Shown: piece after piece, positions 859 through 14,127 of the stretch
How the letters are laid out: every line of letters begins with the position of its first letter
Numbering within the stretch: the stretch's first letter is position 1
DNA from: Roseobacter sinensis
GTDB lineage: Bacteria > Pseudomonadota > Alphaproteobacteria > Rhodobacterales > Rhodobacteraceae
NCBI RefSeq assembly: GCF_025755255.1
Contig: NZ_JALIEB010000014.1
Span: 1 to 64,000 of the forward strand
Reading direction: 5' to 3'
DNA: 64,000 nt
Program-made: the position numbers and the translations under genes
The notes under the pieces: model-generated
Told to the model about the DNA's origin: nothing
The model's input: only the letters and a program-made list of their open reading frames with translations
Database searches by the model: none

Positions 859-1590
859 TCAGATTTCGAGGGCGTGGAAATCCCGAATGACGATTTCGGA
901 TCGCGTGATGTCCAGAACACCTTCTGCCCGCAGCTTGTCCAGTGTCTGGGTGACCCATTGGCGGGTCGCTCCGACCACAAAAGCGATTTGCTCGTAGGTA
1001 ATGGTTCGGTCGATGATGATCGTGTCACCTTCGTGGCGACCGTGGGTGTCGGCGAAGATCACGAGGAACTGACGCAGACGTTCCGTGACAGAACGTGTGC
1101 CCAGCATCTGTATCAGCGCTGAATAGCATTTTCCTTTCGCAATCAGCCCGTGGATCACCGCAATCGCCACGTCGGGGATCTCACGGACAAGCTTTTGCAG
1201 GCTCATGCCCGACAGAAAGACCATCTCACAATCTTCAACCGCATCCGCGGACCAGACGTGGCGCCCGCGACCGAACACCTCCGGCCCACCGATGAAATGA
1301 CCCGCTGTCCAATAGGCCAGGGTGATCTCGCGACCCGTCGGCCCCACATAATAGGTCCGCGCCTTGCCTTTCTCAATAATCCAGACACCGGTGTGGCTGG
1401 CCCCTTGCAGGAAGATGCTGTCCCCTTTGGCAAAGGTGCAGCGCGTCCCCATCTTGCGAACCGTTTTCTGGTCTTCGTATGAAAGTGCGGCCAGAAAACC
1501 CGAGCCTTCATTGATGTCCAGAATGTATTCCGAAAGGTAGATCGCACCCTCCGCGTTGTCCTGCAACGCCTCCTCACGCGGGTGGATCAT
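859..1590 (-). CDS. Crp/Fnr family transcriptional regulator
   Basis: A 243-residue one-component regulator: an N-terminal cyclic-nucleotide-binding-like beta roll (about residues 30-145, with a glycine-rich GxxIFLQG-type turn) and a C-terminal winged helix (about 165-240). The recognition helix segment ATRQWVTQTLDKL matches the CRP/FNR fold. The N-terminal cysteine cluster of oxygen-sensing FNR is not seen, so it is unlikely to be a classical [4Fe-4S] FNR; the signal could be cAMP, NO/heme or another redox ligand. It is the last gene of a long minus-strand operon, and its ATG overlaps the cytochrome c stop by four bases, so it probably controls the copper/redox and transport genes upstream of it. 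I found no clear TTGAT-N4-ATCAA box near them. Confidence 0.9.
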   Translation of the reverse strand: MIHPREEALQDNAEGAIYLSEYILDINEGSGFLAALSYEDQKTVRKMGTRCTFAKGDSIFLQGASHTGVWIIEKGKARTYYVGPTGREITLAYWTAGHFIGGPEVFGRGRHVWSADAVEDCEMVFLSGMSLQKLVREIPDVAIAVIHGLIAKGKCYSALIQMLGTRSVTERLRQFLVIFADTHGRHEGDTIIIDRTITYEQIAFVVGATRQWVTQTLDKLRAEGVLDITRSEIVIRDFHALEI

Positions 1591-2165
1591 GGCCGAGCCT
1601 CCGCAGCAAGATAGACCGCGATAGCGCCGATGTCGGCATCGGGGATCGAAAGCAGGTCTTTGTGCAGACCAGGCAATGCAGCGGCGTCGCGGCGTTCCTC
1701 GCGGAAATCCGTCATCTGCTTGATCAGATAGCCCGGATGCTGTGCGGTCAGGAACGGCACCAAGGGATCGCCGTCAACGGCGTTGTCGTGACATGTGTCG
1801 CACCCCAGCTCGACCACCTTGGCCCGGCCAGCGGAAGTCTCTAAAGCCGCGTAGGGCTCGGGTGGGTCTTGCGACGCGAACCAGTCGGTCACGTAAGGGA
1901 TATCCTCGGGTTGTAACTCGGTCACGATAGCCGCCATCTGGCCGCCGTCGTTCGTGCGGTGCCCGCTCAGAAACCCGCGGATCTGAGCCTCGATATACGC
2001 TGGTTTCTGACCGCCGAGATTTGGAAACTTCGCCGTGTGCGAGACGCCAAACAACCCATGGCAAAGGGCGCAGGTTTCATAGGCCGGGTACTGCGAGGGG
2101 TCGTAATCTGCCTGAGCTGTCGAAGCCAGCAGGATAACGACGCCGGCGAGCCCCCTACGATCCAT
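1587..2165 (-). CDS. diheme cytochrome c (c4/c553-like)
   Basis: A 192-residue periplasmic cytochrome. The start is placed at MDRRGLAG, giving a Sec signal peptide that ends around TAQA; a longer frame to 2192 would lack one. Two CxxCH heme motifs are present: CALCH near the mature N-terminus and CDTCH in the second half, the tandem layout of c4 cytochromes. The first domain has a candidate Met ligand in GGQMAA. The second has LPGLHKDLL where c4 proteins usually show an Asn-rich loop with Met, so the sixth ligand of heme 2 may differ. It overlaps the end of the PCuAC gene by 11 bases and the Crp/Fnr gene by four. Likely role: electron carrier between a periplasmic or membrane oxidoreductase and a terminal oxidase or reductase. 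Confidence 0.88.
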   Translation of the reverse strand: MDRRGLAGVVILLASTAQADYDPSQYPAYETCALCHGLFGVSHTAKFPNLGGQKPAYIEAQIRGFLSGHRTNDGGQMAAIVTELQPEDIPYVTDWFASQDPPEPYAALETSAGRAKVVELGCDTCHDNAVDGDPLVPFLTAQHPGYLIKQMTDFREERRDAAALPGLHKDLLSIPDADIGAIAVYLAAEARP

Positions 2166-2604
2166 GGTCACCCTGTGATCCGTGACCACCATGTATCATT
2201 TTCACGACCTTGGCGCTGACCGCATCTGTCGAACCGTCCGAAAACTCAAGCGTCAGAGCGACGGTGTCCCCTACCCTCGCTGGCGCTTCGGGGTGCATCA
2301 GCATCAGATGCAGCCCTCCGCTTTCGAAGACCACGCTTTGGCCGGGCGCAATCTCCAAGACATCAACGGCCAGCATAGTGGCGACATCGCCTTTCACCTC
2401 CGTCTTGTGCATATGAGCCATCGCGTAGCCTTCGGCAGACACGCCGACCAGTTGCTTGACCACATCATCAGTGTTCGAAATCGTCATATATGCTGCATGA
2501 ACCATCGCGCCGGGCGGTGCGAGCGGGATGATCGGCTTGTCGACCGTGATATCGGCGACGAGGCCCGTGGCCGGAACCAACAGCAAAGCAAGCGCCATGC
2601 GCAT
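2155..2604 (-). CDS. PCu(A)C periplasmic copper chaperone
   Basis: A 149-residue PCuAC/DUF461 protein with an N-terminal signal peptide. It shows the family's methionine/histidine copper site: an AHMHKTE segment in the middle and a GGLHLMLMHP segment about 35 residues later. The C-terminal tail (MIHGGHGSQGDHGS) is His-rich and could add metal affinity. PCuAC proteins carry Cu(I) in the periplasm and load the CuA or CuB centre of cytochrome oxidase together with SCO proteins. The start ATG shares a base with the SCO stop (TGATG), so the two are translationally coupled. The start is placed at the internal ATG, because the frame extends one codon further only through TTG. Confidence 0.92.
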   Translation of the reverse strand: MRMALALLLVPATGLVADITVDKPIIPLAPPGAMVHAAYMTISNTDDVVKQLVGVSAEGYAMAHMHKTEVKGDVATMLAVDVLEIAPGQSVVFESGGLHLMLMHPEAPARVGDTVALTLEFSDGSTDAVSAKVVKMIHGGHGSQGDHGS

Positions 2605-3197
2605 CAATTTGAAAGCTCCTTGCGATAGGTGATCTGCAGCCGCGCCAGAAACTCCGCCGTCGCGCCCGGATCGAAGGGCGGCTGCAGCTTTGCGCGCAGC
2701 GTTCCATCCGGCGCGATGACCGAGACGGACGAGCTGTGTTGCACTTCGTAATGTCCGGTGTGATCCGGTTTGAGCAGGCGATAGAAGCTGTCTGTCGCCT
2801 CGATCAGCGTGTCGATCTGTTCGCGATCGCCGGTGAAGCTTTCGAACTCGGGGTGGAAAAACTTGGCATACTCGCTGACGAATGCCGCGTCGCGTTCAGG
2901 GTCGACCGAGATGAAGACAACGTTCGGGACATTGTCGGGCCTCACCCGAAGACCGGTTTCGCTGATCGCGGCCTCGAGATTGCCGAGCGTGAAGGGGCAA
3001 ACATCCGGACACGATAGGAAGCCAAACATCACGATGGTCCACTGGTCTTCCAGATCCTTGTCGGTGAATTCTTCGCCCAACTCGTTCGTGAAACCAAAAT
3101 CCGGCAACTCGACTGGCGCATCGAGCATGACACCCTGGACTTGAGCGGCGGCAGGTGTCGCGACAAGCGCCAGGAGAAGTGCAGCAAGTTTTTTCAT
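2604..3197 (-). CDS. SCO1/SenC/PrrC family copper/thiol protein
   Basis: A 197-residue SCO protein with a thioredoxin fold. It has a Sec signal peptide (MKKLAALLLALVATPAAAQ), the copper-binding CPDVC (CxxxC) motif around residue 63 and the downstream copper-ligand His in VQHSSSV. SCO proteins bind copper with the two Cys and the His, reduce target cysteines and help assemble CuA centres; in Rhodobacter the homologue PrrC also feeds redox signals. Here it sits between an ABC ATPase gene (4-base overlap upstream) and PCuAC, so copper delivery seems tied to whatever the transporter supplies. No cytochrome oxidase subunit gene lies in the window. Confidence 0.92.
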   Translation of the reverse strand: MKKLAALLLALVATPAAAQVQGVMLDAPVELPDFGFTNELGEEFTDKDLEDQWTIVMFGFLSCPDVCPFTLGNLEAAISETGLRVRPDNVPNVVFISVDPERDAAFVSEYAKFFHPEFESFTGDREQIDTLIEATDSFYRLLKPDHTGHYEVQHSSSVSVIAPDGTLRAKLQPPFDPGATAEFLARLQITYRKELSN

Positions 3198-4027
3198 GCG
3201 TTCTGATCCTCGAAGGCTCTGCGGCTTTCGGCCTTGATTGTGTCGAGGCAGAATTGCCGGGCTTTGATGTATTCGGAGGTTGCAGCCAGGTCGGTTGTGC
3301 GCGGGCGGGGCAGCTCGATCTTGACGTCTTCGATAATGCGCCCGGGGGCCGCACTCATGATCAACACACGGTCGGCCAAAAAGACCGCTTCGTCGACGTC
3401 ATGGGTCACAAACACGACCGTGGTGCCGAAATGCTTCCAGATGTCCAGAAGACTCTCCTGCATCATCAGCCGGGTTTGTGCGTCCAAGGCACCGAAGGGT
3501 TCGTCCATCAGCAGGACGGAAGGGTAGTTCGCAAGCGCACGGGCAATGCCCACGCGCTGCTGCATACCGCCCGAAAGCTCGGCCGGGTACCGGTTGCCGA
3601 ACTTCTTCAGACCGACCAGTTCCAGGAAGGTGTTTGCCGTTGATCCAGCCGATGTCCGGCTGGCGCCTGCCATCTTCGGCCCGAAAGCCACGTTTTCATA
3701 GACGGTCTTCCACGGCAGAAGCGAATATTGCTGGAACACCATGCCGCGATCCGGGCCAGGCTTTTCGACCATCACGCCGTCGACGATGACCTCGCCGGTT
3801 GTGGGCTTCACATATCCCGCGACCGCGTTCAGCAGCGTGGACTTGCCGCAGCCGGAGGGACCGAGGATACAGACGAACTCGCCGGCTTTGATCTCGATCG
3901 AAGTTGTCTCCACCGCCAAGTGCGCGTCGGGCCCCGTCCCGAAGGTGATGGATACCTCGTTGACGGAGATATGGCCCTTTCCCTTAGACGCCGCCTTGGG
4001 GTCCTCGAACTTCAAGACATCAAGCAT
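3194..4027 (-). CDS. NitT/TauT-type ABC transporter ATP-binding protein
   Basis: A 277-residue ABC ATPase of the nitrate/sulfonate/taurine class (NrtD/TauB/SsuB). Walker A GPSGCGKST is at residues 56-64, followed by the Q-loop, the signature LSGGMQQR, Walker B LLMDEP and the switch His in VTHDVDEA. A GGAGAA ribosome-binding site precedes the ATG. The gene overlaps the end of the upstream membrane-protein gene by eight bases and the SCO start by four. It should energise the permease encoded at 4685-5569. Substrate specificity cannot be read from the ATPase. Confidence 0.93.
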   Translation of the reverse strand: MLDVLKFEDPKAASKGKGHISVNEVSITFGTGPDAHLAVETTSIEIKAGEFVCILGPSGCGKSTLLNAVAGYVKPTTGEVIVDGVMVEKPGPDRGMVFQQYSLLPWKTVYENVAFGPKMAGASRTSAGSTANTFLELVGLKKFGNRYPAELSGGMQQRVGIARALANYPSVLLMDEPFGALDAQTRLMMQESLLDIWKHFGTTVVFVTHDVDEAVFLADRVLIMSAAPGRIIEDVKIELPRPRTTDLAATSEYIKARQFCLDTIKAESRRAFEDQNA

Positions 4028-4685
4028 TGGCCGGTTCTCCTTCCGATACGGGCGCCGGCCGGCATTTGCGCCAAGCCAAGACCAGGATCAGAGCAAACAA
4101 CAGTCCGAAGCCCGCGCCAGAGAGCACCGGCCCCATCGTCTCAAGCGCAAGCGACGTGGACACGCCCAGCCCCAACATCGCGAGGCCGACAACCCAGCTG
4201 GGTGTTGCGCAGCAGACGACCCAACTCATCGTGGCGTTGGTCATCGCGACGAGAAGCGCGCCGAAGCCGGTCGTGGCGCGCAAAGTCGTGGAGGCCCCAG
4301 CCTCGCAGCTGTCGCGCCTCAAGAGCGCCAGGCACAGCGATACCATCGCGCCCAATGCAAAGAGCACCAGCAGACGCGACGGCACCACATTCAGGCTCCA
4401 CTCGGAGATTCCGGTGCCGTAGTCGTAGTTCATTTTGCCGATCTCGATCAGCCATTCCTCCCAAATGATCGGGAGGATGTCGCTCCAAGCCGGGGTGGAT
4501 TGAACGATCCAACTGACGTTGCCGATCCAGTCGTAGAAGGTCACGTAATTCGGAAAGGCCTGAAAGCGCAGGATCAGGGCCAGCATCATGAAGACCTGAA
4601 AGACCAATGCAAAGATCAGGCCGTGCACAACCATGGTTTTCCAATTGGCGCGCAGGTCGGTCCAAAGGGTACGGAGAAGTGCCAT
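4020..4685 (-). CDS. polytopic membrane protein with an intramembrane Cys-Cys pair, inside the ABC operon
   Basis: A 221-residue inner-membrane protein with about five or six hydrophobic segments; I do not recognise the family with certainty. One segment carries a vicinal cysteine pair (MSWVVCCATPSWVVGLAM), which recalls the Cys pair in the first helix of MerT/MerF-type metal transporters; more Cys occur in the loop RRDSCEAG and near the C-terminus (WRKC). The start at 4685 shares a base with the permease stop (TGATG) and has AAGGA eight bases upstream; a frame to 4706 is also open. Placed between the permease and ATPase genes, it may be a second membrane subunit or a metal/thiol partner of the importer. 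It lacks the EAA-loop signature of ABC permeases, so it is not a second permease copy. Confidence 0.75.
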   Translation of the reverse strand: MALLRTLWTDLRANWKTMVVHGLIFALVFQVFMMLALILRFQAFPNYVTFYDWIGNVSWIVQSTPAWSDILPIIWEEWLIEIGKMNYDYGTGISEWSLNVVPSRLLVLFALGAMVSLCLALLRRDSCEAGASTTLRATTGFGALLVAMTNATMSWVVCCATPSWVVGLAMLGLGVSTSLALETMGPVLSGAGFGLLFALILVLAWRKCRPAPVSEGEPANA

Positions 4686-5569
4686 CAGCGCGTCCTTTCT
4701 TGCCATTTCAACATGGGCCGGGTGATGGCTCTTACCGCCGCGGTGGAGGCGGTGCCGAGAAGGCCGATCACCAGCATTCCGACGACGATGTCTTGATAGT
4801 TGATCAGGCTGTAGGCATCCCAGGTGAAGTAGCCGATGCCGTACTGGCCCGAGATGATCTCGCCCGCCAGAAGCGAGAACCAGCTCACACCCATGCCGAT
4901 GGCGAGCCCGGCGGCAATGGACGGCAGGGCAGCCGGGATCACCACATGCCGGAACACGGCCCAGCGAGACGCACCAAGGGATTGAACAGCGCGGACGAGA
5001 ACCTCAGGCGTCTGTTCGACGCCATGCAACGTGTTGAGGACAATGGGGAACAGAGCTCCGAGAAACGTGATGTAGATGATCGAGCTTTCTTCGGTCGGCC
5101 ACATCAGGATGGCCAGCGGGATCCAGGCAACCGCTGGGATGGGCCTGATCACCTCGATGTAGGGCATGATAAAGGCGCGGGCGAACTTGGATCGCCCCAT
5201 GATCAATCCGATCCCGATCCCAAGGACGACGGCAATCGAGTAGCTGATCAGAATGCGGCGCATCGAAACGCCGATGTGGGTCCAGAAAATCTCGGTCTGG
5301 ATGTGAGCGACGAAGGCCATAAACACCTTCGCGGGCGACGGCACATTCGAGAAGTTGATGTAGAAGTCGAGATTGACCGACGTCACCAAATGCCACAGCA
5401 GAACACCGATGGTGAGCGACAAACAGGCAATGCCGAGGCTGGAGAGCTGATCGCGGGTCAGGGTCGGAAGCTTGGGTGCCGACACCGCATCCTTGTGCGC
5501 ACGCGGGACCGCGTCGGGACGGCCCTTTGCCGCGGTTTGCGGCGCCTCGGCCTTCAGTGCAGTTTCCAT
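4685..5569 (-). CDS. NitT/TauT-type ABC transporter permease
   Basis: A 294-residue permease of the TauC/SsuC/NrtB family with about six transmembrane helices after a 45-residue cytoplasmic N-terminus rich in Ala, Pro and Lys. The BPD_transp_1 loop is visible as QSLGASRWAVFRHVVIPAALP, the coupling helix that contacts the ATPase. The first segment (LSLTIGVLLWHLV) and the GRSKFARAFIMPYIEVIRPIPAVAWIPL stretch fit the family. It lies 69 bases downstream of the substrate-binding-protein gene, separated from it by a hairpin, and is coupled to the next gene through a TGATG junction. Confidence 0.93.
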   Translation of the reverse strand: METALKAEAPQTAAKGRPDAVPRAHKDAVSAPKLPTLTRDQLSSLGIACLSLTIGVLLWHLVTSVNLDFYINFSNVPSPAKVFMAFVAHIQTEIFWTHIGVSMRRILISYSIAVVLGIGIGLIMGRSKFARAFIMPYIEVIRPIPAVAWIPLAILMWPTEESSIIYITFLGALFPIVLNTLHGVEQTPEVLVRAVQSLGASRWAVFRHVVIPAALPSIAAGLAIGMGVSWFSLLAGEIISGQYGIGYFTWDAYSLINYQDIVVGMLVIGLLGTASTAAVRAITRPMLKWQERTR

Positions 5570-5591
5570 CGTCTTGCCTTTCCCGTGCGGT

Positions 5592-5616
5592 GAGCCGAGG
5601 CGCGCAACCTCGGCTC
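5592..5616 (-). other. 9-bp perfect hairpin between the binding-protein and permease genes
   Basis: GAGCCGAGG (5592-5600), a 7-base loop and CCTCGGCTC (5608-5616) form a perfect inverted repeat in the short space after the substrate-binding-protein gene. There is no T-tract on the minus strand after it, so a full terminator is unlikely. Hairpins at this place in ABC operons commonly protect the binding-protein transcript from 3' decay and so raise its level over the permease; this is inference from position. Confidence 0.6.
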
Positions 5617-5638
5617 CTCTTGCTTGGTGCGGTCCGCT

Positions 5639-7009
5639 TCAGCCTTCAGTGATGAAGTCGGCGATCGCCTCGTCAAAGCTGACGAGTGTGCCATCGTTGG
5701 CCGAGGCAAAGGCTTCTGCTTCCCCCTTGCGCAGGAAGGTCGCATAATCGTCGCCCGCCTTGACCCAGAAGGCCGTTTTGCCGAACAGCTTCAGCCCGGT
5801 CTCGACGTCATAGACATACGTGGCATTGAGGAGCGCGCCGGTGCCCTGCATCTCGGCAACAGCGGTCAGGAACTCGGGCAGCGACGGGTAGGTAGAGACA
5901 CCGTCTCGGGCGTGCCAGATCTCCATCGGCAGGCCTTTGTTGGCGACGACCGGGTCGACGACCGTAGCCTTGTCAACCTCATAGTCGATGCCAAGATCCG
6001 CGTAGGCGCTCTTGATATAGTCTTCCGTGATCCAGGCATCGAAGTCGAGCGGCGGGATCGCCTTTTCCTTGACGAGAACGCCATGGTTGAACTTGAGCGC
6101 ATCGACCCATTCGGTCTTGATCGATGGCTCCAGGGTCAGGTGACCGCCTTCGGAGAAGTAGAGATACAGCACCTCTTTCTCGACTCCGGTCCAGCCTTCC
6201 ATCAGCGACACCGCTTCCATGGGGTCCTCGCGGATCCACTCGCCGGCTTCCCAGACCGCCTTGATAAAGGCCTCGACAACCTCGGGATACTCGACCGCAA
6301 AGTCCTCGCGCACAACGACACCGTGCAGATACGGGACGCCGGTCTCCGAGCCGTCATAAATCTTCCGTCCGGTGCCGCGGAACTCCATAATCTCGGACCA
6401 GGGGCAGAAATCGCTGTGCGCGTCGATCTTGCCGGCTGCGATATTGGCCGCGCCAACGGCCGGGCTCTGGTTCTTCAAGACGTACTCGGAGGTCGGAATG
6501 TTATTGTCCTGCATGGCTTTCAGCAGCATACCCCACGCCGCCGAACCGACCGGCGTCGACACCTCTTTGCCTTTCAGGTCGGTGATCGAGTACATGTCGC
6601 TGTCGACAGGCACGACAATCGCGTTGCCGGAGCCTTTGAGGTTGTACCCCGTACCCGCCACGTAAAGTGTGCGCAGGCTTTCCGTCTCCTGAAACTTGGC
6701 ACCGTTCACGATCAGCGGATAGTCACCCATCACACCAAAATTCAGCTTGTTGGCCAGCATCTGGTTGGTGATCGGACCACCCGAACTGTAGTCCGCCCAG
6801 GTGACGTCATACTCCGCATCGGCGTATTTGCCATCGGTGGGCAGGTACTTCTCAAGAAGACCCAATTCCTTGACCACGATGCCGGCGGTATAGGTGTCGG
6901 TACACATCGACTGGTGTCCAATAGCGATGCTGATCTTTTCCGCCGATGCCATCCCGGCAATGGGCAGAAGCGCTGCAGCAAAGAAAGCGCTCTTGGTGAG
7001 TTGCTTCAT
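5639..7009 (-). CDS. NitT/TauT-type ABC substrate-binding protein with a NosL-like C-terminal tail
   Basis: A 456-residue periplasmic binding protein. The start MKQLTKSAFF is chosen because it gives a clean Sec signal peptide (ending ASA) and follows AGGGG; a frame to 7069 is open but adds 20 non-signal residues. Residues about 24-385 have the NMT1/THI5-like two-lobe fold of nitrate, sulfonate and thiamine-precursor binding proteins. The mature protein has two notable Cys, in HQSMCTDT and HSDFCPWSE, both likely at or near the ligand cleft. The last 65 residues, after LLNATYVYD, read as FGKTAFWV...FLRKGEAEAFASANDGTLVSFDEA, which resembles the C-terminal half of NosL copper proteins, but the NosL Cys/Met metal motif is absent. 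First gene after a 250-base leader. The ligand is unknown. Confidence 0.85.
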   Translation of the reverse strand: MKQLTKSAFFAAALLPIAGMASAEKISIAIGHQSMCTDTYTAGIVVKELGLLEKYLPTDGKYADAEYDVTWADYSSGGPITNQMLANKLNFGVMGDYPLIVNGAKFQETESLRTLYVAGTGYNLKGSGNAIVVPVDSDMYSITDLKGKEVSTPVGSAAWGMLLKAMQDNNIPTSEYVLKNQSPAVGAANIAAGKIDAHSDFCPWSEIMEFRGTGRKIYDGSETGVPYLHGVVVREDFAVEYPEVVEAFIKAVWEAGEWIREDPMEAVSLMEGWTGVEKEVLYLYFSEGGHLTLEPSIKTEWVDALKFNHGVLVKEKAIPPLDFDAWITEDYIKSAYADLGIDYEVDKATVVDPVVANKGLPMEIWHARDGVSTYPSLPEFLTAVAEMQGTGALLNATYVYDVETGLKLFGKTAFWVKAGDDYATFLRKGEAEAFASANDGTLVSFDEAIADFITEG

Positions 7010-7094
7010 AACTAGCCCCTGTTGTGTTTTTTGAGTTCTGTTACTCAAGGCCAGTGTCGGCGCATTCATTCCGGCTTCAAAATCCGTGAGGCGT

Positions 7095-7111
7095 ATTTTT
7101 TATTAAAAAAT
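7095..7111. promoter_or_regulatory. AT-rich palindrome upstream of the transporter operon
   Basis: An 8-bp perfect inverted repeat around one base (six Ts against six As) lies about 90 bases upstream of the binding-protein start, in a markedly AT-rich 200-base leader (7010-7258) within otherwise GC-rich DNA. It could be an operator, an UP-element or part of a promoter for the transporter, copper and cytochrome genes. It does not match the FNR/DNR consensus, and I cannot assign a regulator. Confidence 0.35.
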
Positions 7112-7258
7112 CGTTCACTTTTCGCATTGCCTGTTTTTGAAGCAGGATTTGCGACTGTTTTGTCGAAAAATGGGGCAGCCAGAGTGAGCTGTCAGGCGAA
7201 TCGATTCGAGGTAAAAATCTTTTTATTTCAAATATTTAAGGTGGCACTGGAGTGCAAG

Positions 7259-7292
7259 ATCCACCCCTCGAACTGAGGTTCGAGGGGTGGAT
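7259..7292. other. perfect 15-bp stem, 4-base loop hairpin between HEAT and binding-protein genes
   Basis: The sequence reads as a 15-bp arm (7259-7273), loop TGAG, and an exact complementary arm (7278-7292). It begins 34 bases after the HEAT-repeat gene stop on the minus strand. No run of T follows immediately in the direction of transcription, although an AT-rich stretch lies about 20-45 bases further. It may be a terminator, an RNA-processing or stability element, or an attenuator dividing the flavoprotein genes from the transporter genes. The perfection and length of the stem make chance unlikely. Confidence 0.7.
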
Positions 7293-7326
7293 TGATCAGA
7301 ATGATCCGGGGCGAAACAAACCCCGG

Positions 7327-8289
7327 TTAAGCGGCCAATTTCTCCAATGCCCAGCGGACATTCTTGCGAACATCCGGGTCACGGTCATCGGCGTATTTCT
7401 CGAGAAATTGTGCCGTTTCAGGCACCGCCAATTCGCCGAGCGCTGCCGCACATTCCTTTCGAAGATTTGGCACCGGCACGTCCATCATGGGTCCGATTTC
7501 CATCGCCGCTTCGGTTGCACGAAGCTTGCCCAGGGAGCGCACCGCCTTCAGGCGCACCTGCCAGTACTCGTCTCCTAGCACGCCCCGCAGCGCAGCGATA
7601 CAGGACGCGCCGCCGGTCTTCGCCAAGGTCTCGGCCGCAGCTTCACGCACCATCCATTCCGGATCGGCCAAAGCGTTGACCAAGGTGGCCTCGGCATGGT
7701 CCGACTTCGAAAATCCAAGCGCGGACAGGGCTGTCCGCCGCACTTTCACGTCGGCGTCTTTCGCCGCGTCGCGCAAGGCAGGCAACGCGCTTTCATCCTG
7801 CAGCCAGCCGATCACGCCAACAGCCTGCTCCCTTACCTCGGCCGAGACATGTTGCAAAGCCGCAATCGCAGGCCCCATCGCTTCGACCCGGCGCAGCTCC
7901 TTTATGCCGGCCAGGCAGGCTCTCAGCTTCACGTCATTCGCGGCACTCAGATGCGGCAGGATCGCGCCGCCGGATTTCGGGTCCTTCAGCTCTGTCAGGC
8001 TGCGGGCCGCCGCGTCGATCACGGCGGGGTCATCGTCGTCCAAAGCGCTGACCAAGGCCGCAGCCGTCTCTACGCCATCGAAATCGGTGAGAGCCTGCGC
8101 CGCCTGCTTCCGCACGCCGGCGTCGTCGTCGGTGATAGCCCTGGCAATGAACGGAATCGCGGCGGGATCTGCGGTATCGGCCAGTTCAATCACCGCCATG
8201 ATGCGCGCGCCAGGCGACGGATCATCCAACCCCTCGGCCAGATCCGCGATATCGTCAAAGTCTTCGAACAGTTGGTCCACGGCGGTCAC
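7327..8289 (-). CDS. HEAT-repeat (PBS-lyase-type) protein
   Basis: A 320-residue all-helical solenoid of about nine HEAT repeats of roughly 31 residues, each with the pattern of a small-residue helix, a D-P/D-x-x-V turn and AA-x-x-L, for example DDDPAVIDAAARSL and ADPEWMVREAAAETLA. No catalytic residues or signal peptide are seen, so it is probably a cytoplasmic scaffold or adaptor. The start is a GTG at 8289 whose last two bases form the TGA stop of the ferredoxin gene (GTGA), indicating coupled translation and suggesting that it binds the ferredoxin/flavoprotein pair. PBS-lyase-type HEAT proteins are known as assembly or cofactor-handling partners in several metabolic systems; its exact role here is not known. 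Confidence 0.88.
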   Translation of the reverse strand: MTAVDQLFEDFDDIADLAEGLDDPSPGARIMAVIELADTADPAAIPFIARAITDDDAGVRKQAAQALTDFDGVETAAALVSALDDDDPAVIDAAARSLTELKDPKSGGAILPHLSAANDVKLRACLAGIKELRRVEAMGPAIAALQHVSAEVREQAVGVIGWLQDESALPALRDAAKDADVKVRRTALSALGFSKSDHAEATLVNALADPEWMVREAAAETLAKTGGASCIAALRGVLGDEYWQVRLKAVRSLGKLRATEAAMEIGPMMDVPVPNLRKECAAALGELAVPETAQFLEKYADDRDPDVRKNVRWALEKLAA

Positions 8290-8528
8290 TTCAGCAGATA
8301 AGGGAGATTGACGGTCACCGCATCCGTTGGGCAGTCGGCCTCGCAAGGCATGCAATACCAGCACTCGTCATACTTCATGTAAGCGGTCTTCTTGCCGTTG
8401 TCTTTCTCGACGATGCGCAGCACATCAAGAGGGCAGACATCGACACAAACGGTACAGCCCTTGTCGGCGATGCAGAGGTCGTCGTTGACAACGACGGGCA
8501 CGGTTGTGGCGGTTTGAGCAAGGGGCAT
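8286..8528 (-). CDS. 2x[4Fe-4S] ferredoxin, AprB-like but short
   Basis: An 80-residue ferredoxin with eight Cys in two clusters: C19-x5-C25-x2-C28-x3-C32 followed by Pro, and C56-x2-C59-x2-C62-x3-C66 followed by Pro. The longer gap in the first motif (CIADKGC) is unusual for bacterial 2[4Fe-4S] ferredoxins and recalls the beta subunit (AprB) of adenylylsulfate reductase. It lacks the long C-terminal tail by which AprB embraces AprA, ending at NLPYLLK. The gene lies five bases after the AprA-like flavoprotein gene, so the two should form an alpha/beta electron-transfer unit. Confidence 0.9.
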   Translation of the reverse strand: MPLAQTATTVPVVVNDDLCIADKGCTVCVDVCPLDVLRIVEKDNGKKTAYMKYDECWYCMPCEADCPTDAVTVNLPYLLK

Positions 8529-8533
8529 TGGCG

Positions 8534-10282
8534 TTACTCCGCGGCAACCGAAGACGTCGCGCCGACGCGCTGCTTGTAATAGGCGTCTTTCTCGTCTTCA
8601 GCGATTTCAACAATGTAGGGTTTGACATCCTGCTTTTCGTGCGCCGGCTTGCCGTCTTCGCCCTTGGTCAGCATCGTGTGGCAGAACCAGTTTTCATCGT
8701 CGCGTTCATATTCCACCCGGTTGTGATAAAGACCCCAACGGCTTTCCGTCCGATACATGGACGCAGCGGCCGCCATCTCGGCGCAATCGAGAATGGTGGA
8801 GGCTTCGAGCGCGCGCATCAGCTCATGCGCATCGCGGACATACATGCCGTGTTGCATGTCGTCGCGCACCTCCTCGAAGCGCTGCTGCGCCAACTCCATT
8901 TTCGCGGTGACTTTCGGCGGTTGCAGATAGTCGTTCACCAGACGGCGCGTCTTGTACTCGATCTGATTGGGCGGGACGCCGTCGTCCCGCTTGGTCGGTG
9001 CCATGACGCGGGCGCGCTCGGCGTCGACCTCACCTTTGTCAAAGGCCGCAAAATCCACATTTGCGACGAAATCGGCAGCATCCAGGCCTGCAAAGGCGCC
9101 GTTGGTAAAGGCGCCGAGCATGTAGTTGTGCGGAACGTTGGCCATGTCACCCGCGGCGTAGAGACCGGGGATCGTGGTACGGGCGTGTTCATCGACAAAA
9201 ACGCCCGAGGCCGAGTGGCCGGAACAGAAGCCGATCTCCGAGATATGCATCTCGATCATCTGCTTGCGATAATCCGTGCCGCGCCCTTCATGGAAATGGC
9301 CCCGCGTCGGACGCTCGACGATATGCAGAACACGCTCGATTTCCGAAATCGTCTCTTCGGCAAGGTGGTTGAGTTTCAGGTACACTGGCCCCTTCCCGCC
9401 TTGAAGCTCGTCGTAGAATTCCTGCATCATCTGGCCTGACCAGTAGTCACATTCGATGAACCGCTCGCCCGAGGCGTTGGCGGTGTAGCCGCCCATGGGG
9501 CCGGCCACATATGCGCAAGCCGGACCGTTGTAATCCTTGATCAGCGGGTTGATCTGATAGCATTCGAGGTTCGCGAGGCCCGCACCGGCGTGATAGGCCA
9601 TCGCATAGCCTTCGCCGGAGTTCGACGCATTCTCATATGTGCCATAGAGATAGCCGCTTGTCGGCAGGCCCAACCGTCCGGCCGCGCCGAGGCCCATGAT
9701 GACTGCCTTGGCGCGCACCACGAGGAACTCCGCCGAGCGGGTATTGACGCAGATCGCTCCGGCCACGCGACCTTCGCCAGTCAGAAGCCGCGTCGCCATA
9801 AAGCGGTTGATGATGTTGATCCGTGCCTTGCGCAGTTGCCGGTAGAGCGCCTTCTTTACGGTGTCGCCATTCGGCATCGGAAGAACGTATGTGCCGATAT
9901 GGTGCACCTTCTTGACATCATATTCGCCGTTCTGATCCTTCTGGAACCGGATCCCGAAGCTGTCGAGTTCCTGGATGATCCCGTAGCACTCCTGCGCATA
10001 GCGATACACGGCGGCCTGGTCGCAGATGCCGTCATTCGCAATGGTGATTTCCTTGGTGTACTGCTCGGGTGTGGCGTAACCGGGGATGACCGAATTGTTC
10101 AGCCCATCCATCCCCATGGAGATTGCGCCGGACCGCTTCACATTGGCCTTGTCAAGCAAGACAACATTCGCCTCGGGGTTCTTGCGCTTAGCTTTCAAGG
10201 CCGCCATCGGCCCGGCGGTACCCCCACCGATGACCAGGATGTCACAGTCGATCTGTGTCAGTCCGTCGAGTATTTCGTCCAT
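8534..10282 (-). CDS. AprA-like FAD-dependent oxidoreductase (fumarate reductase/APS reductase alpha family)
   Basis: A 582-residue flavoprotein. The N-terminus has the FAD-binding GGGTAGPMAALKA motif with an acidic end (VVLLDK), then a KRSGAISMGMDG segment typical of AprA and succinate dehydrogenase/fumarate reductase flavoproteins, and AGLYAAGDMANVPHN near residue 400 for the second FAD contact. The C-terminal helical domain shows ESRWGLYHNR...NWFCHTM, closest to AprA from sulfur metabolism. It is cytoplasmic: no Sec or Tat signal. The start follows AGGGGTGAAG. True APS reductases occur beside sat, aprM or qmoABC; none is here, and the partner ferredoxin is short, so the substrate is probably not APS. 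Next to a NitT/TauT importer it may oxidise or reduce the imported compound. Confidence 0.85.
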   Translation of the reverse strand: MDEILDGLTQIDCDILVIGGGTAGPMAALKAKRKNPEANVVLLDKANVKRSGAISMGMDGLNNSVIPGYATPEQYTKEITIANDGICDQAAVYRYAQECYGIIQELDSFGIRFQKDQNGEYDVKKVHHIGTYVLPMPNGDTVKKALYRQLRKARINIINRFMATRLLTGEGRVAGAICVNTRSAEFLVVRAKAVIMGLGAAGRLGLPTSGYLYGTYENASNSGEGYAMAYHAGAGLANLECYQINPLIKDYNGPACAYVAGPMGGYTANASGERFIECDYWSGQMMQEFYDELQGGKGPVYLKLNHLAEETISEIERVLHIVERPTRGHFHEGRGTDYRKQMIEMHISEIGFCSGHSASGVFVDEHARTTIPGLYAAGDMANVPHNYMLGAFTNGAFAGLDAADFVANVDFAAFDKGEVDAERARVMAPTKRDDGVPPNQIEYKTRRLVNDYLQPPKVTAKMELAQQRFEEVRDDMQHGMYVRDAHELMRALEASTILDCAEMAAAASMYRTESRWGLYHNRVEYERDDENWFCHTMLTKGEDGKPAHEKQDVKPYIVEIAEDEKDAYYKQRVGATSSVAAE

Positions 10283-10351
10283 GCTTCACCCCTGGATACC
10301 GCTTGCCCCCGATCCTGCGCCGCAGCGCAGAAAGGGAATGTCAATTAATTG

Positions 10352-10633
10352 TCACGCGCGCTCGGAAAGTTCGCGAAGATACGGAAACGGGTAGATCGCC
10401 TTTTCGTGCCCGTCGGAGAAATGCACATTCACGCCATTTCCAACCTGTCGCAGCTCGGTGATCGTGATCCCCGGCGCCACGGCCACCTCACCAAAGTCCA
10501 GTCGTTGACGAATCGACCAAGCATCCTTGGCCTCGCGGCGCAGGTAGGCTGCCGAGAAGACGCTTGTCTCGCCAGTGTTCCAGATCACCGTCAGGTGCTG
10601 GGCGTCCGCGCTTGCAGTCAGACTCTCGATCAT
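10352..10633 (-). CDS. DUF971-like (GBBH N-terminal-like) small protein
   Basis: A 93-residue protein with the DUF971/gamma-butyrobetaine hydroxylase-like fold pattern: LTVIWNTGETSVFSAAYLRRE near the N-terminus and the closing GVNVHFSDGHEKAIYPFPYLREL. The CPCAxC-type cysteine motif found in many DUF971 domains of Mrp/ApbC Fe-S scaffolds and GBBH is missing. The start at 10633 follows GGGAG; an in-frame ATG at 10690 gives a 19-residue longer product without a ribosome-binding site. It lies 69 bases upstream of the AprA-like gene, on the same strand, and may act in Fe-S or cofactor maturation of that enzyme; this is inference. Confidence 0.72.
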   Translation of the reverse strand: MIESLTASADAQHLTVIWNTGETSVFSAAYLRREAKDAWSIRQRLDFGEVAVAPGITITELRQVGNGVNVHFSDGHEKAIYPFPYLRELSERA

Positions 10634-10754
10634 CTTGGGCTCCCATCGTCTGCGAGCAAATTGCAGAACCCGGAGCGCCGCAAATAGCAATTAGTTGACG
10701 GACACCCCCGCTGCATTGCGGCAGGAAGAGCGAAACATCGAGGAATGTCGCGCC

Positions 10755-11096
10755 ATGACTTATGTCGTCACTGACAACTGCATTGCCTGCAAATACACCG
10801 ACTGCGTGTCTGTTTGCCCAGTCGACTGTTTCTATGAAGGTGAAAATATGCTGGTCATTCACCCGGACGAGTGCATCGACTGTGGCGTTTGCGAACCCGA
10901 ATGCCCTGCGGACGCTATTCGGGCGGATACCGAAGCCGGCATGGGCAAATGGGTGGCGTTCAATCGAAAGTACTCGGAGCTCTGGCCTGTTATCCTCGAG
11001 GCCAAGGAGCCCTTGGCGACCGCGGACGCGCTCGACGGCACCGAAGGCAAGCTCGAGACGCACTTCTCTGAAAAGCCCGCAGCCGAGGCCGCCTGA
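10755..11096 (+). CDS. fdxA: 7Fe ferredoxin ([3Fe-4S][4Fe-4S], FdxA type)
   Basis: A 113-residue ferredoxin starting [17 protein letters not shown]. The N-terminal Cys pattern C9-x2-C12-x4-C17-x3-C21-P and the second motif C-x2-C-x2-C-x3-C-P ([12 protein letters not shown]) are those of the Azotobacter/FdxA 7Fe family, which also has the long C-terminal extension with WPVI seen here. The start is set at 10755 by homology; the frame is open to 10695. Its stop TGA shares a base with the ATG of the reductase gene (TGATG), so the ferredoxin is made together with its reductase. Transcribed divergently from the DUF971 and AprA-like genes, it is the likely electron donor or acceptor for them. Confidence 0.93.
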
Positions 11097-11884
11097 TGAA
11101 CGTCCGCGCCAAAGTCCTGCCCGATGCGCAAACCGTCACAGCGGTCACGCATTGGACCGAGACGCTGTTTTCCTTCCGGGTCTCGCGCCCGCGATCTCTG
11201 CGCTTTCGGTCGGGTGAGTTCGTCATGATCGGTCTTCTGAAGGACGACGGCAAACCGCTTTTGCGGGCTTACTCCATCGCCTCGCCCTCATGGGATGACG
11301 CGTTGGAGTTCTATTCGATCAAGGTGCCTGACGGCCCGCTGACCTCGCGCCTCCAGAAAATCGAACCGGGCGACCAGATCATTCTGCGCCCCAAGCCCGT
11401 CGGTACCCTTGTCCTTGACGCGCTCCTGCCCGGCAGACGCCTGTGGATGATCTGCACCGGCACGGGCATTGCACCTTTCGCGTCGCTTCTGCGCGATCCC
11501 GAAACCTGGGAGAGCTATGAGCAGGTGATCGTCGCGCATACCTGTCGCACCCAAGCAGAGCTCGCTTACGGGGCGGCGATTGTCGACGCCCTCCCGCGCG
11601 ATCCGCTGATCGGCGAGTTGGTCGACGAAAAACTGCACTACTATCCAACGACAACACGCGAAGCCTCCGATATCGAAGGGCGCGTCAGCGATCACATTCG
11701 CGATAACCGCATCTTCAGCGCGCTTGGCATGCCCAGATGGTCCGCCGACGCCGACCGCGTGATGATATGCGGCAATCTTGCGCTGAACAAAGACGTGATG
11801 GCTCTCTGCGAAGAGCACGGTTTGGAGGAAGGTGCCAACTCCGATCCCAAACACTTCGTCGTCGAGAAAGCCTTCATCGACTGA
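11096..11884 (+). CDS. fpr: ferredoxin-NADP+ reductase, bacterial FPR type
   Basis: A 262-residue flavoenzyme that exchanges electrons between NADP(H) and ferredoxin. The FAD-binding RAYSIASP motif lies near residue 60, the nucleotide-binding CTGTGIAPFASLLRD near residue 118, and the C-terminus ends HFVVEKAFID, matching FPR of Rhodobacter and Azotobacter (about 255-275 residues). Coupled to the 7Fe ferredoxin gene upstream by a one-base overlap. The last 11 bases overlap the convergent DsbA-like gene. With the AprA-like flavoprotein nearby this completes a chain NADPH - FPR - FdxA - flavoprotein/ferredoxin. Confidence 0.95.
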   Translation: MNVRAKVLPDAQTVTAVTHWTETLFSFRVSRPRSLRFRSGEFVMIGLLKDDGKPLLRAYSIASPSWDDALEFYSIKVPDGPLTSRLQKIEPGDQIILRPKPVGTLVLDALLPGRRLWMICTGTGIAPFASLLRDPETWESYEQVIVAHTCRTQAELAYGAAIVDALPRDPLIGELVDEKLHYYPTTTREASDIEGRVSDHIRDNRIFSALGMPRWSADADRVMICGNLALNKDVMALCEEHGLEEGANSDPKHFVVEKAFID

Positions 11885-12581
11885 GCCAAACCTCCGACAG
11901 CGCCTCGATATCCGTCGAGCCGAAGACGACACTGTCCGGTGTCACAAAGGCCGGCGTGCCCAGAACTCCCAGCGCAATTGCCACATCACGGTTGTAGGTT
12001 ATGCGGGATGTCACGGCCTCGCTCTCCATGACTGGCGCGATCTTCGCAAAGTCGAGGTCGAGCGTCCCGGCAATCCGCTGAAAGCCAGCGGTGTTCAATG
12101 GACCCCGCACATCCCACAACCTGTCGTGGACCGCACGATATGTCTCGTCGCCATAGATCTCGCGGCTGGCCAGGGCAAAGCGCGCCGCCCGCTCGGAACC
12201 GGGCGTGAGGATCGGCAACTGCCGCATTTCGAGCCGCACCTCCGGATGCGCCGCAACAAACTCCACGAGGGCAGGATGGATCGTTTTGCAGGGCACGCAT
12301 TTGTAATCGAAGAACTCGACAATCCGGCGCGGCGCCGCCACATCTCCCTCTCCCAGTCGTGCAGCGTCTGCGAACAACTCCGGATAGGCCGCAAGCCGCG
12401 CCTGCGTCTCGGCCCGCGCTTCGCGCTCCGCGAGGATTTCCAGCGCTTCGACAATGATTTCTGGGTTATCGAGAATGAACGCACGCACCCTGTCTTCAAA
12501 CGAAACGCCCTCGGCTTGCGCAGGCCCAAGAGACAGCGCGACCGTAGCGGCAGAGAACAAAATCCCAAAAAGAAACTTCAT
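11874..12581 (-). CDS. DsbA/ScsC-like periplasmic thiol-disulfide oxidoreductase
   Basis: A 235-residue secreted thioredoxin-fold protein: Sec signal peptide ending around AQAEG, a helical region (about 25-85), then FFDYKCVPCKTIHPAL with the CVPC active site near residue 97, the DsbA helical insert, and the cis-Pro loop GTPAFV near the C-terminus. This order is that of Com1/ScsC-type DsbA proteins. In copper-handling clusters such proteins keep cysteines of Cu chaperones or cytochromes in the right redox state; the SCO, PCuAC and cytochrome c genes in the neighbouring operon are plausible clients. Convergent with fpr, so it needs its own promoter upstream of 12581. Confidence 0.9.
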   Translation of the reverse strand: MKFLFGILFSAATVALSLGPAQAEGVSFEDRVRAFILDNPEIIVEALEILAEREARAETQARLAAYPELFADAARLGEGDVAAPRRIVEFFDYKCVPCKTIHPALVEFVAAHPEVRLEMRQLPILTPGSERAARFALASREIYGDETYRAVHDRLWDVRGPLNTAGFQRIAGTLDLDFAKIAPVMESEAVTSRITYNRDVAIALGVLGTPAFVTPDSVVFGSTDIEALSEVWLSR

Positions 12582-12864: not shown

Positions 12865-14127
12865 CTACGGCGCCTCGAAGAACAGCCAGAATTGCCTTTT
12901 GACGGCGGCGCCCGGCACGAAGGAGAAGCCGGTGTCATAGGACAGGCCAGCTGTAATCCTGCCCAGGATGGGGAATTTCGTTGCTTCCGCCGCGCCCGCA
13001 TGTCCTGCCAGACCGGCGCCCAGGCTCTCGGTCACCAGAAGCGTGCCGTCGAAGTCATCGAATTCCAGACACTGCTTGCGACCAAAAATCGCCCAGGTGT
13101 CCACAAGATCTGTCGACAAAGATGCAACCGTCATCATGCTGGAGAGCGATGAAGCCTCTATGATCTTCTTCACCTTGGTCACGGCCTCTGCAATCTGTTG
13201 GACTTCCTTGGAGAAGGCCAAAGGGTCAAAATCCGCAACGGCCCCGCCGCCGACGGCCATGAACCGGCGCGTTTCAGCAACGCGGCGGGTCTGGTCGTCC
13301 AGACGGTCGGGATCCAACCGGTTCAGGTCGAAGACCCGCATGGCAATCCCACCGCCTAGGCCAATGGCGCCCAGCACCGGGATGGTGATATCGAGCGCGA
13401 TCTCGCCTTTTTGATCCAGCGCCCAATAGGCCGACCCATTGCCGCTGCAATGTATCCTCGGTCTCGGTGTGGGCGTCGGGATCTCGACCTTCTTGGGCGG
13501 CGTGTCATCCGGTTTGCGCAAGGCGACCGAGAAGGTGACAATCACGTTGCGATTGAGCGGTTCTTCGAGGCCGTCGGGATGGCCGGTGCGGTCAATCACC
13601 GGTCTGGCGGAGCCAAAACTCGCCGAATGGATGTCCCCCGGCTTGACCCCCAACTCAAACACCAGCCACGAGGCCACAACAGCAGCCCGCTCAGACGACA
13701 ACGCGGCATTCCCCGGGCTTGTGGCGGTTCCCGCTTCTGGCCCGGTCTGGCTCGCGCCTCCGATGATGCGCTCAATCCTGAAGTCATTCCCGATGGCCTT
13801 GGGCACACGCAGGAGCGTCAGCATCCGCTGGTGGCTGTCCTCGAGGTCGGTCTTTCCAATCGCGAAGCTGTGCAGCAGCAGATGCACGCGCTGGCGCCCT
13901 GCACTGGGGGCTTCGGCCGAATAGCCCGCGATGGCCAGATCTGCCGCCACAAGCGGCGACAGTTTGTCGGGTTCCGTCCCCAGGCGGGCGTCGCCCGCTT
14001 TGGGAAACGTGTCCTTTGCCACGGCCACCGCGCCGCGCGCGACATTTTCGGCCGATCCCTTGATCGCCTTCCACAACATCCGGCGCAGCGTCTCAGGATT
14101 GGCAATGCTCGGAAGATTGAGAGTCAT
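12865..14127 (-). CDS. OmpA/MotB-like domain protein, no signal peptide
   Basis: A 420-residue protein. Residues about 80-205 match the OmpA/MotB C-terminal fold: a VHLLLHSF strand, IERIIGGAS, then LSSERAAVVASWLVFELGV followed by IHSASFGSARPV and LNRNVIVTFSVAL, which is the RAxxVxxxL...G...P...NRRV pattern for binding peptidoglycan or related polymers. The rest is unassigned: an N-terminal helical part, a Pro/Thr-rich linker (PTPTPRP) and a C-terminal region of amphipathic strands and helices that could form a beta-rich domain. No Sec, Tat or lipoprotein signal is seen, which is odd for a peptidoglycan binder. The start overlaps the stop of the 1251-residue gene by four bases (ATGA), so they are one functional unit. 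Confidence 0.72.
   Translation of the reverse strand: MTLNLPSIANPETLRRMLWKAIKGSAENVARGAVAVAKDTFPKAGDARLGTEPDKLSPLVAADLAIAGYSAEAPSAGRQRVHLLLHSFAIGKTDLEDSHQRMLTLLRVPKAIGNDFRIERIIGGASQTGPEAGTATSPGNAALSSERAAVVASWLVFELGVKPGDIHSASFGSARPVIDRTGHPDGLEEPLNRNVIVTFSVALRKPDDTPPKKVEIPTPTPRPRIHCSGNGSAYWALDQKGEIALDITIPVLGAIGLGGGIAMRVFDLNRLDPDRLDDQTRRVAETRRFMAVGGGAVADFDPLAFSKEVQQIAEAVTKVKKIIEASSLSSMMTVASLSTDLVDTWAIFGRKQCLEFDDFDGTLLVTESLGAGLAGHAGAAEATKFPILGRITAGLSYDTGFSFVPGAAVKRQFWLFFEAP

Follow-up and report, generated by a model that had tools for sequence, protein, structure and literature searches.

An AprA-like flavoprotein cassette with a separable copper-importer block in Roseobacter sinensis, a candidate system for organic sulfo-compounds

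Introduction

What does an AprA-like flavoprotein do beside a solute importer and a group of copper and thiol proteins? The question is raised by positions 859–12581 of a 64,000-nucleotide stretch of Roseobacter sinensis DNA (GCF_025755255.1, NZ_JALIEB010000014.1), the whole stretch being hereafter the window. We propose a two-module system that would use an organic compound bearing a sulfo group (R-SO3-, probably a sulfonate), with NADPH-fed flavin adenine dinucleotide (FAD) chemistry releasing sulfite, represented here by a copper-importer variant; we judge the chance that this proposal is right to be about even. To our knowledge, the known bacterial routes for desulfonation of unactivated sulfonates need oxygen or radical enzymes.

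An initial annotation had described the locus as fourteen genes forming a single copper, redox and ATP-binding cassette (ABC) import system around the flavoprotein. An open reading frame (ORF) listing and family scans located all the parts it named, and the total is 15 ORFs, a DUF971 protein having been overlooked. Its anatomy, with solute import, cytoplasmic redox chemistry on electrons from a reductase and a ferredoxin, and copper and thiol functions outside, fits the parts and is confirmed as real beyond chance. The label 'apparently undescribed' also holds for the open-licence literature, where a keyword search found no description of the cassette, subscription papers being outside its scope. 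The single system is not supported: the core is widespread and made of families with NCBI models, and the copper genes are separable and tied to an importer subtype.

Results

The AprA-like protein (8534..10282, minus strand; 582 amino acids) scores 1040.5 bits against NF006131 (PRK08275 flavoprotein; cut-off 587), and its domains include PF00890 and PF02910. A profile of 16 relatives, 57–77% identical to the window's protein, retrieved from the PDB the alpha subunit of 3′-phosphoadenosine 5′-phosphosulfate (PAPS) reductase (8a8o, 1.1e-82), AprA of adenosine 5′-phosphosulfate (APS) reductase (2fja, 7.1e-59), SdhA (1.2e-37) and FrdA (6.1e-31). In a phylogenetic tree, these flavoproteins and AprA split from SdhA/FrdA-type proteins and an AsfA candidate with 97/99 support, the AprA and AsfA branches being very long and the finer placements unsure. 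The active-site residues were compared in 94 sequences, namely the window and 93 of the 94 loci introduced below, with the interrupted flavoprotein of locus L063 omitted. Equivalents of AprA Asn74, Lys267, Asp268 and His398 are retained in all 94, and Trp234 is replaced by Tyr. Residues of the APS site are replaced throughout, Arg265 by Leu, Gln145 by Val and Glu141 by Ile, Leu, Met, Val or Ser; six AprA proteins compared keep Arg265 and Gln145 in every case and Glu141 in five. PMC10322725 places Gln145 in the AprA substrate pocket. Against the AprA model TIGR02061 the flavoprotein reaches 123.5 bits (cut-off 641.75), the ferredoxin encoded beside it scores 27.2 bits against the AprB model TIGR02060 (cut-off 135.65), and no aprA was found in the host genome at E 1e-100. 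Profile, tree and residue pattern thus assign the flavoprotein, on sequence grounds, to the APS-reductase lineage, yet not as an APS reductase.

The genes around it offer candidate partners. Downstream on the minus strand lie the ferredoxin gene (8286..8528; PF12838 6e-10), whose 80-residue product has eight Cys expected to bind two 4Fe-4S clusters, and a HEAT-repeat protein gene (7327..8316; PF13646 3.5e-46 on ORF 7327–8364). Upstream on the same strand, the DUF971 (GBBH-like N) protein (10352..10633; PF06155 2.8e-13 on ORF 10352–10690, 10633 being the chosen frame start) is perhaps an Fe-S maturation helper. The divergent plus-strand unit encodes the 7Fe ferredoxin FdxA (10755..11096; NF045490 161.8 bits, cut-off 135, on ORF 10695–11096) and then a ferredoxin-NADP reductase-like flavoprotein (FNR; 11096..11884; PF00175 5.1e-9; NF008178 1.3e-37, under cut-off), with a DsbA-like thiol oxidoreductase carrying an ScsC N-domain (11874..12581, minus strand; PF01323 7.8e-20) convergent to them. 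PAPS reductase (8A8O, Methanothermococcus thermolithotrophicus) and AprAB are alike to this assembly in the FAD-subunit fold and lineage, a two-4Fe-4S partner, Asn74 and His398. The window differs from them in the replaced Arg265, Glu141 and Gln145, the extra HEAT partner, a ferredoxin of only 80 residues, the linked importer, FNR and FdxA, and a genome without aprA.

The cassette was followed through 94 loci under 48 taxon labels, which come from record titles and are not in every case genera: the 80 closest to the window of at least 591 confirmed profile-search stretches from genome contigs, 26 of them labelled Bradyrhizobium, and 14 chosen plasmid loci. Gene counts come from BLAST matches at 1e-6 at any point of a stretch, each ORF being given a single label; contig ends truncate some stretches, short genes may escape, and the ABC counts take in unrelated importers. 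The core is close to constant, with the flavoprotein in 94 loci, the ferredoxin in 93, HEAT in 91 and DUF971 or Mrp in 72. The long binding protein is present in 77, the permease in 80 and the ATPase in 84, FNR in 47 and FdxA in 27. Rarer still are the copper and thiol genes: SCO 12, the Cys-pair membrane protein 11, cytochrome c 11, PCuAC 9 and DsbA 5 (the same five of the 80 genome-contig loci). Of the parts whose order the initial annotation named, the core recurs in nearly all of these loci, mostly with a NitT/TauT-type importer, and the copper parts occur in one subset. Gene order varies: the importer may come after flavoprotein-ferredoxin-HEAT, or a GntR regulator may accompany the order flavoprotein-ferredoxin-importer-HEAT-DUF971. 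In Tsukamurella L017 the flavoprotein is fused to HEAT (NF010374, 1568 bits on the fused protein), and an Mrp/NBP35 gene lies near HEAT in three cyanobacterial loci (L014–L016). The core families have NCBI models (NF006131, NF010374) and are widely spread; the locus is not a one-off mosaic. Its distribution is patchy, with the flavoprotein at 1e-100 in 4 of 289 genomes of an even sample of the class, the host's included; in a plasmid collection, tblastn returned 51 records at 1e-100 and 54 at 1e-40.

The importer points towards sulfonates. All four PDB matches of its periplasmic binding protein (5639..7009, minus strand; TIGR01728 4.7e-34, under cut-off) are TauA or SsuA types, TauA at 1.6e-21; one of the four, titled a nitrate transport protein, we take to be SsuA. 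In TauA the sulfonate is held by Gln30 and by main-chain contacts from Gly61, Gly79 and Thr132 (PMC6906117). Counted along the printed alignment, in which the letters agree with the numbering of that paper, Gly61 and Gly79 fall on Gly97 and Gly115 of the binding protein (numbered on the 476-residue ORF 5639–7069), Thr132 to Ala177 and Trp176 to Phe221, which adjoins Cys222. Gln at position 53 is kept in more than 95% of 77 binding proteins. The protein is closest in sequence to the TauA/SsuA lineage, and a sulfo-compound is its likely ligand. TauABC and SsuABC share with the window this lineage, the sulfonate-holding glycines and the permease family (PF00528 1.2e-24; 4685..5569, minus strand). 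They differ in that the window's binding protein exceeds the solved TauA chain by well over 100 residues, that Asn and His stand for TauA Glu106 and Asp205, and that the copper variant places the Cys-pair gene between those of the permease and the ATPase (3194..4027, minus strand; PF00005 2.7e-32).

That Cys-pair gene (4020..4706, minus strand) belongs to the copper block. Its product carries the motif SWVVCCATPSW, with CC invariant in nine aligned members, and beyond the ATPase gene the same strand encodes SCO/SenC (2604..3197; PF02630 3.8e-29; one of five SCO in the genome), the chaperone PCuAC (2155..2607; PF04314 4.8e-29; one of three), a diheme cytochrome c (1587..2192; PF00034 1.5e-6; PdsA-like 3.7e-15, under cut-off) and a Crp/Fnr-family regulator (859..1590; PF00027 5.9e-15, PF13545 1.7e-11). 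Metal and thiol motifs are intact, with CPDVC in SCO, HM..M..HxM in PCuAC, two CxxCH in the cytochrome, all eight Cys in the small ferredoxin and CVPC in DsbA. As the initial annotation stated, the 15 ORFs include no cox or nosZ, the genes that accompany SCO and PCuAC in Cu-A oxidase and nitrous oxide reductase assembly. MerT is weakly alike in the vicinal Cys and the stretch that follows; the Cys-pair protein differs in being longer (228 residues against a family of 116 positions) and below the Pfam cut-off, and no mer genes are among the 15 ORFs. Only three of nine members match MerT PF02411, weakly (best E 0.0091, below the cut-off of 32.9 bits), and the likeness of the CC segment comes in part from a comparison with five MerT sequences in a tiny database, where E-values are only suggestive; the host genome has no MerT at 1e-10.

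A single binding-protein type goes together with the Cys-pair protein, SCO, PCuAC and cytochrome c. At least three of these four genes are present in 12 loci, the window included, and all 12 of their binding proteins have Met-Cys at 55–56 and Cys at 222, at predicted ligand loops; both cysteines occur in none of 65 others, the second alone in one of them (L080) and in a further non-copper locus, L122. Among 295 Rhodobacteraceae genomes the Cys-pair protein was found in nine, the host's included, and five of the eight others are new loci; at 1e-8 it was found in the host genome only among 299 genomes of the phylum. All eight others keep the pocket letters, the five new loci bringing the overall count to 17 of 17 copper loci, and have the DUF971-to-Crp run and FdxA-FNR beside the Cys-pair gene, save an undetected PCuAC in L116 and cytochrome c in L121; DsbA was seen in four of the eight stretches. 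In a tree of 31 sequences, the 12 copper-type binding proteins form one clade (100/99). A constraint grouping the 12 flavoproteins of the same loci was rejected (approximately unbiased test, p-AU 4.6e-6, with L063 included as an incomplete ORF). L027, which has the copper genes, pairs as sister with L030, which lacks them (100/99). The copper genes thus travel with the importer type, as a swappable module that follows the binding-protein clade and not the flavoprotein tree. One origin suffices for the association, so the perfect match does not amount to 17 independent events. The SCO of L079 has no other copper genes beside it. A sub-branch of the copper loci encodes an AhpC/TSA-type thioredoxin-fold protein between a GntR regulator and the binding protein (L034:13783–14331, checked; similar ORFs in L063 and L064).

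Sulfite exporters provide the second pointer to sulfur. A YeiH homologue accompanies 30 of the 94 loci, under 12 of the 48 labels, and TauE homologues six; Pfam checks returned PF03601 in four of four YeiH and PF01925 in three of three TauE proteins. YeiH confers sulfite resistance in Salmonella (PMC12880088). Across 58 alphaproteobacterial genomes, which we sum to about 164 Mb, 16 genes passed the cut-off, so that the background expectation is about 0.2 in the 1.88 Mb examined, against 30 loci observed. YeiH follows Crp in L025, L026, L068 and six of the eight Rhodobacteraceae stretches (three of these six repeat those loci), stands next to FNR on one strand in L070, L085 and L088 (a short copy in L088), and lies near Mrp in two cyanobacteria. 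Bradyrhizobium accounts for 19 of the 30 loci, in almost a single arrangement, which weakens this evidence and brings its independent part nearer to the 12 labels. The part seen of a paper on Rhodococcus IGTS8 (PMC8557817) mentions YeiH and not the flavoprotein.

Between the divergent units lies the element TAGCAAyTArTTGACnGAC, read from an alignment of 13 loci (10685..10703, plus strand; TAGCAATTAGTTGACGGAC). Allowing up to two mismatches, an element search found it 35 times in 133 loci, or at 30 distinct sites after removal of loci under two names, and all but one of these (L008) are beside the FdxA, FNR, DUF971 or flavoprotein gene of the cassette, by position or locus homology. It is common to cassette promoters of Rhodobacteraceae, Labrenzia, Bradyrhizobium, Rhodopseudomonas and Granulosicoccaceae. 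The window's copy is the only exact match in its own genome, where no second site with fewer than two mismatches was found; a regulon search there at up to three mismatches gave 39 matches for the pattern and 91 for a reversed-pattern control. We regard the element as a candidate binding site for a Crp-family regulator dedicated to the cassette.

On the minus strand the order runs DUF971, flavoprotein, ferredoxin, HEAT, binding protein, permease, Cys-pair protein, ATPase, SCO, PCuAC, cytochrome c, Crp/Fnr; the contig starts where the window does, and the view on the Crp side ends there. From permease to Crp, each gene overlaps the next by 4 to 38 bases. Gaps are 69 bases between DUF971 and flavoprotein, 5 between flavoprotein and ferredoxin (which overlaps HEAT by 31), 69 between binding protein and permease, and 317 between HEAT and binding protein. 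This last gap contains an inverted repeat, read directly from the sequence (about 7253..7295), a possible terminator; the minus-strand genes may therefore be transcribed as two units rather than one. Transcription of the AprA-like gene apart from the importer and copper genes, which would speak against the initial annotation, is likely and not proven; in L031 and L041 the importer-copper block lies beyond FdxA-FNR. Promoter and terminator scans gave no more than shuffled sequence would (4 found against 4.2 expected, and 12 against 12.0), and the repeat at 7253–7295 is absent from the terminator-scan matches.

An OmpA-domain protein and a 1251-residue lamin-tail-domain protein adjoin the cassette on the same strand (12865–17879) and lie outside the tracked conserved set. 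Amidase-cluster genes occur near it in 11 of 95 loci (L014, L012, L025, L030, L028 and others), with GNAT acetyltransferases also in L012 and L014; they may reflect an amide-bearing substrate or chance. The amidase family is large, and these genes, one checked by Pfam, were set aside as a cassette part, their positions being mixed. Cassette genes are in pieces in L121, where several are in two, and in L112/L113 (genome G350), with several split matches, and the L063 flavoprotein (10001–11734) contains one stop; decay or assembly error would account for them.

Discussion

Taking families, conservation, module structure and residue patterns as found in the sequences, we infer a substrate class, a reaction, an electron order and a job for the copper module as a whole. 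The binding protein, permease and ATPase would import an R-SO3- compound, the sulfo-compound being the likely substrate. In the cytoplasm, electrons would pass from NADPH through FNR, FdxA and the small ferredoxin to FAD. The flavoprotein would attack the sulfo group of a non-nucleotide substrate and free sulfite by way of an FAD-sulfite adduct, as in APS and PAPS reductases; according to PMC10322725, N5 of FAD in MtPAPSR attacks the sulfur to form FAD-sulfite. This reductive release is less certain than the substrate class. HEAT would serve as subunit or scaffold of the flavoprotein enzyme, DUF971 would aid Fe-S cluster loading, and the sulfite would either enter assimilation or leave the cell, in many hosts by way of YeiH or TauE. 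In the variant found in the window, the periplasmic Cys-pair protein, SCO, PCuAC, diheme cytochrome c and sometimes DsbA would work with the Met-Cys and Cys binding protein on a sulfo-compound that bears a thiol or bound copper at its opposite end, and copper and thiol chemistry would keep this ligand in a loadable state. Coenzyme M, a mercaptosulfonate, would be a fitting example. The fullest form, reductive sulfonate cleavage by a soluble member of the APS-reductase family that draws on NADPH, forms an FAD-sulfite adduct and includes HEAT as a subunit, from cyanobacteria to actinobacteria, joined in the window's clade by a copper-assisted, cysteine-lined importer for thiol- or copper-bearing sulfo-compounds, we hold doubtful.

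Several points weigh against the proposal. The binding protein falls below both NCBI cut-offs (SsuA 117.9 vs 163.5 bits, TauA 70.3 vs 304.25), TauA Glu106 and Asp205 are Asn149 and His249 in it, its Gln53 was equated with TauA Gln30 by motif only, outside the printed alignment, and the long form was not found in 17 of the 94 stretches. No flavoprotein family member with a known reaction was found, the loss of the AprA Arg265 could mean quite different chemistry, and the roles of AprA residues such as Arg265 and Glu141, Gln145 excepted, are our assumption. The structural model of the flavoprotein is moderate (pLDDT 62.7, pTM 0.72); Foldseek placed 8a8o first, FrdA close behind and AprA next, so that fold alone parts them weakly, FrdA scoring almost as well. 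The Cys-pair protein model is poor (pLDDT 60.5), and its fold search returned no match. YeiH was not seen near 64 of the 94 loci, the window's genome has no YeiH-family gene, the family is present in 6 of 14 control genomes, the background covers one class and was counted by Pfam, not BLAST, and TauE accompanies only six loci.

The nearness of FrdA bears on a different reading, a fairly unlikely one, in which the imported solute is an acid whose carbon part the enzyme would reduce or oxidise, much as fumarate reductase and L-aspartate oxidase do with their substrates, and the exporters are incidental or belong to a different step. The superfamily is the same (PF00890, PF02910), equivalents of His356, Arg511 and Arg515 occur in SdhA-type proteins of the same genome, and FrdA structures are near the best fold match; the profile search, however, puts PAPS and APS reductases far ahead of SdhA (1e-82 and 7e-59 against 1e-37), and importer and exporters point to sulfur. 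We consider it improbable that the flavoprotein-ferredoxin pair is a mere electron carrier for a separate sulfonate-removing oxygenase, as proposed for AsfA/AsfB, a precedent in which a reductase and ferredoxin are required for arylsulfonates besides ssu (PMC4267179 and PMC2864759). The AsfRABC system is alike in flavoprotein, ferredoxin, binding protein and sulfonate context, a C. metallidurans locus (L022) probably encodes such a pair, and an NtaA/DmoA-type FMN monooxygenase is annotated beside the cassette in Cupriavidus L011. Its ORF cluster, however, is in only 5 of 95 loci, the L022 protein is distant (28% identity, E 1.3e-9) and outside the group of our flavoproteins and AprA on a long branch, and the dedicated FNR and FdxA feed would leave the flavoprotein a redundant carrier. 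AsfRABC also has a LysR regulator, and the consulted parts of its sources mention no HEAT, FNR or FdxA. The L022 flavoprotein gene (623–2604) overlaps that of a 111-residue ferredoxin, and its best NCBI models are generic fumarate-reductase/aspartate-oxidase ones, not AprA. Identity of the window's flavoprotein with AsfA was set aside: strain CH34, which has asfAB according to PMC2864759, is not among the 54 plasmid records at 1e-40 and gave only distant matches later.

Copper itself could be the cargo, with a copper-binding substrate-binding protein, a MerT-like protein, SCO and PCuAC feeding it inward or to an unlinked cuproenzyme. Met-Cys and Cys at the ligand loops, the vicinal Cys of the weakly MerT-like membrane protein and the two copper chaperones are in its favour; we still think it unlikely, given that the core enzyme hardly differs without the block (in L029 and L030, which lack it, the flavoprotein shares 91% and 90% identity with that of the window), the block holds no cuproenzyme gene, and the host has four more SCO and two more PCuAC. 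A chance gathering of unrelated genes, which the mixed family names might suggest, is scarcely credible and is refuted by conservation of the same set in many genera and by the common promoter element.

If the proposed use of sulfo-compounds is right, APS-reductase-type desulfonation would be an added chemistry, with the flavoprotein gene as a marker by which organosulfur cycling could be followed in marine and soil settings. The clean tie between the copper block and two cysteines of the binding protein makes a role of copper in solute import open to experimental test.

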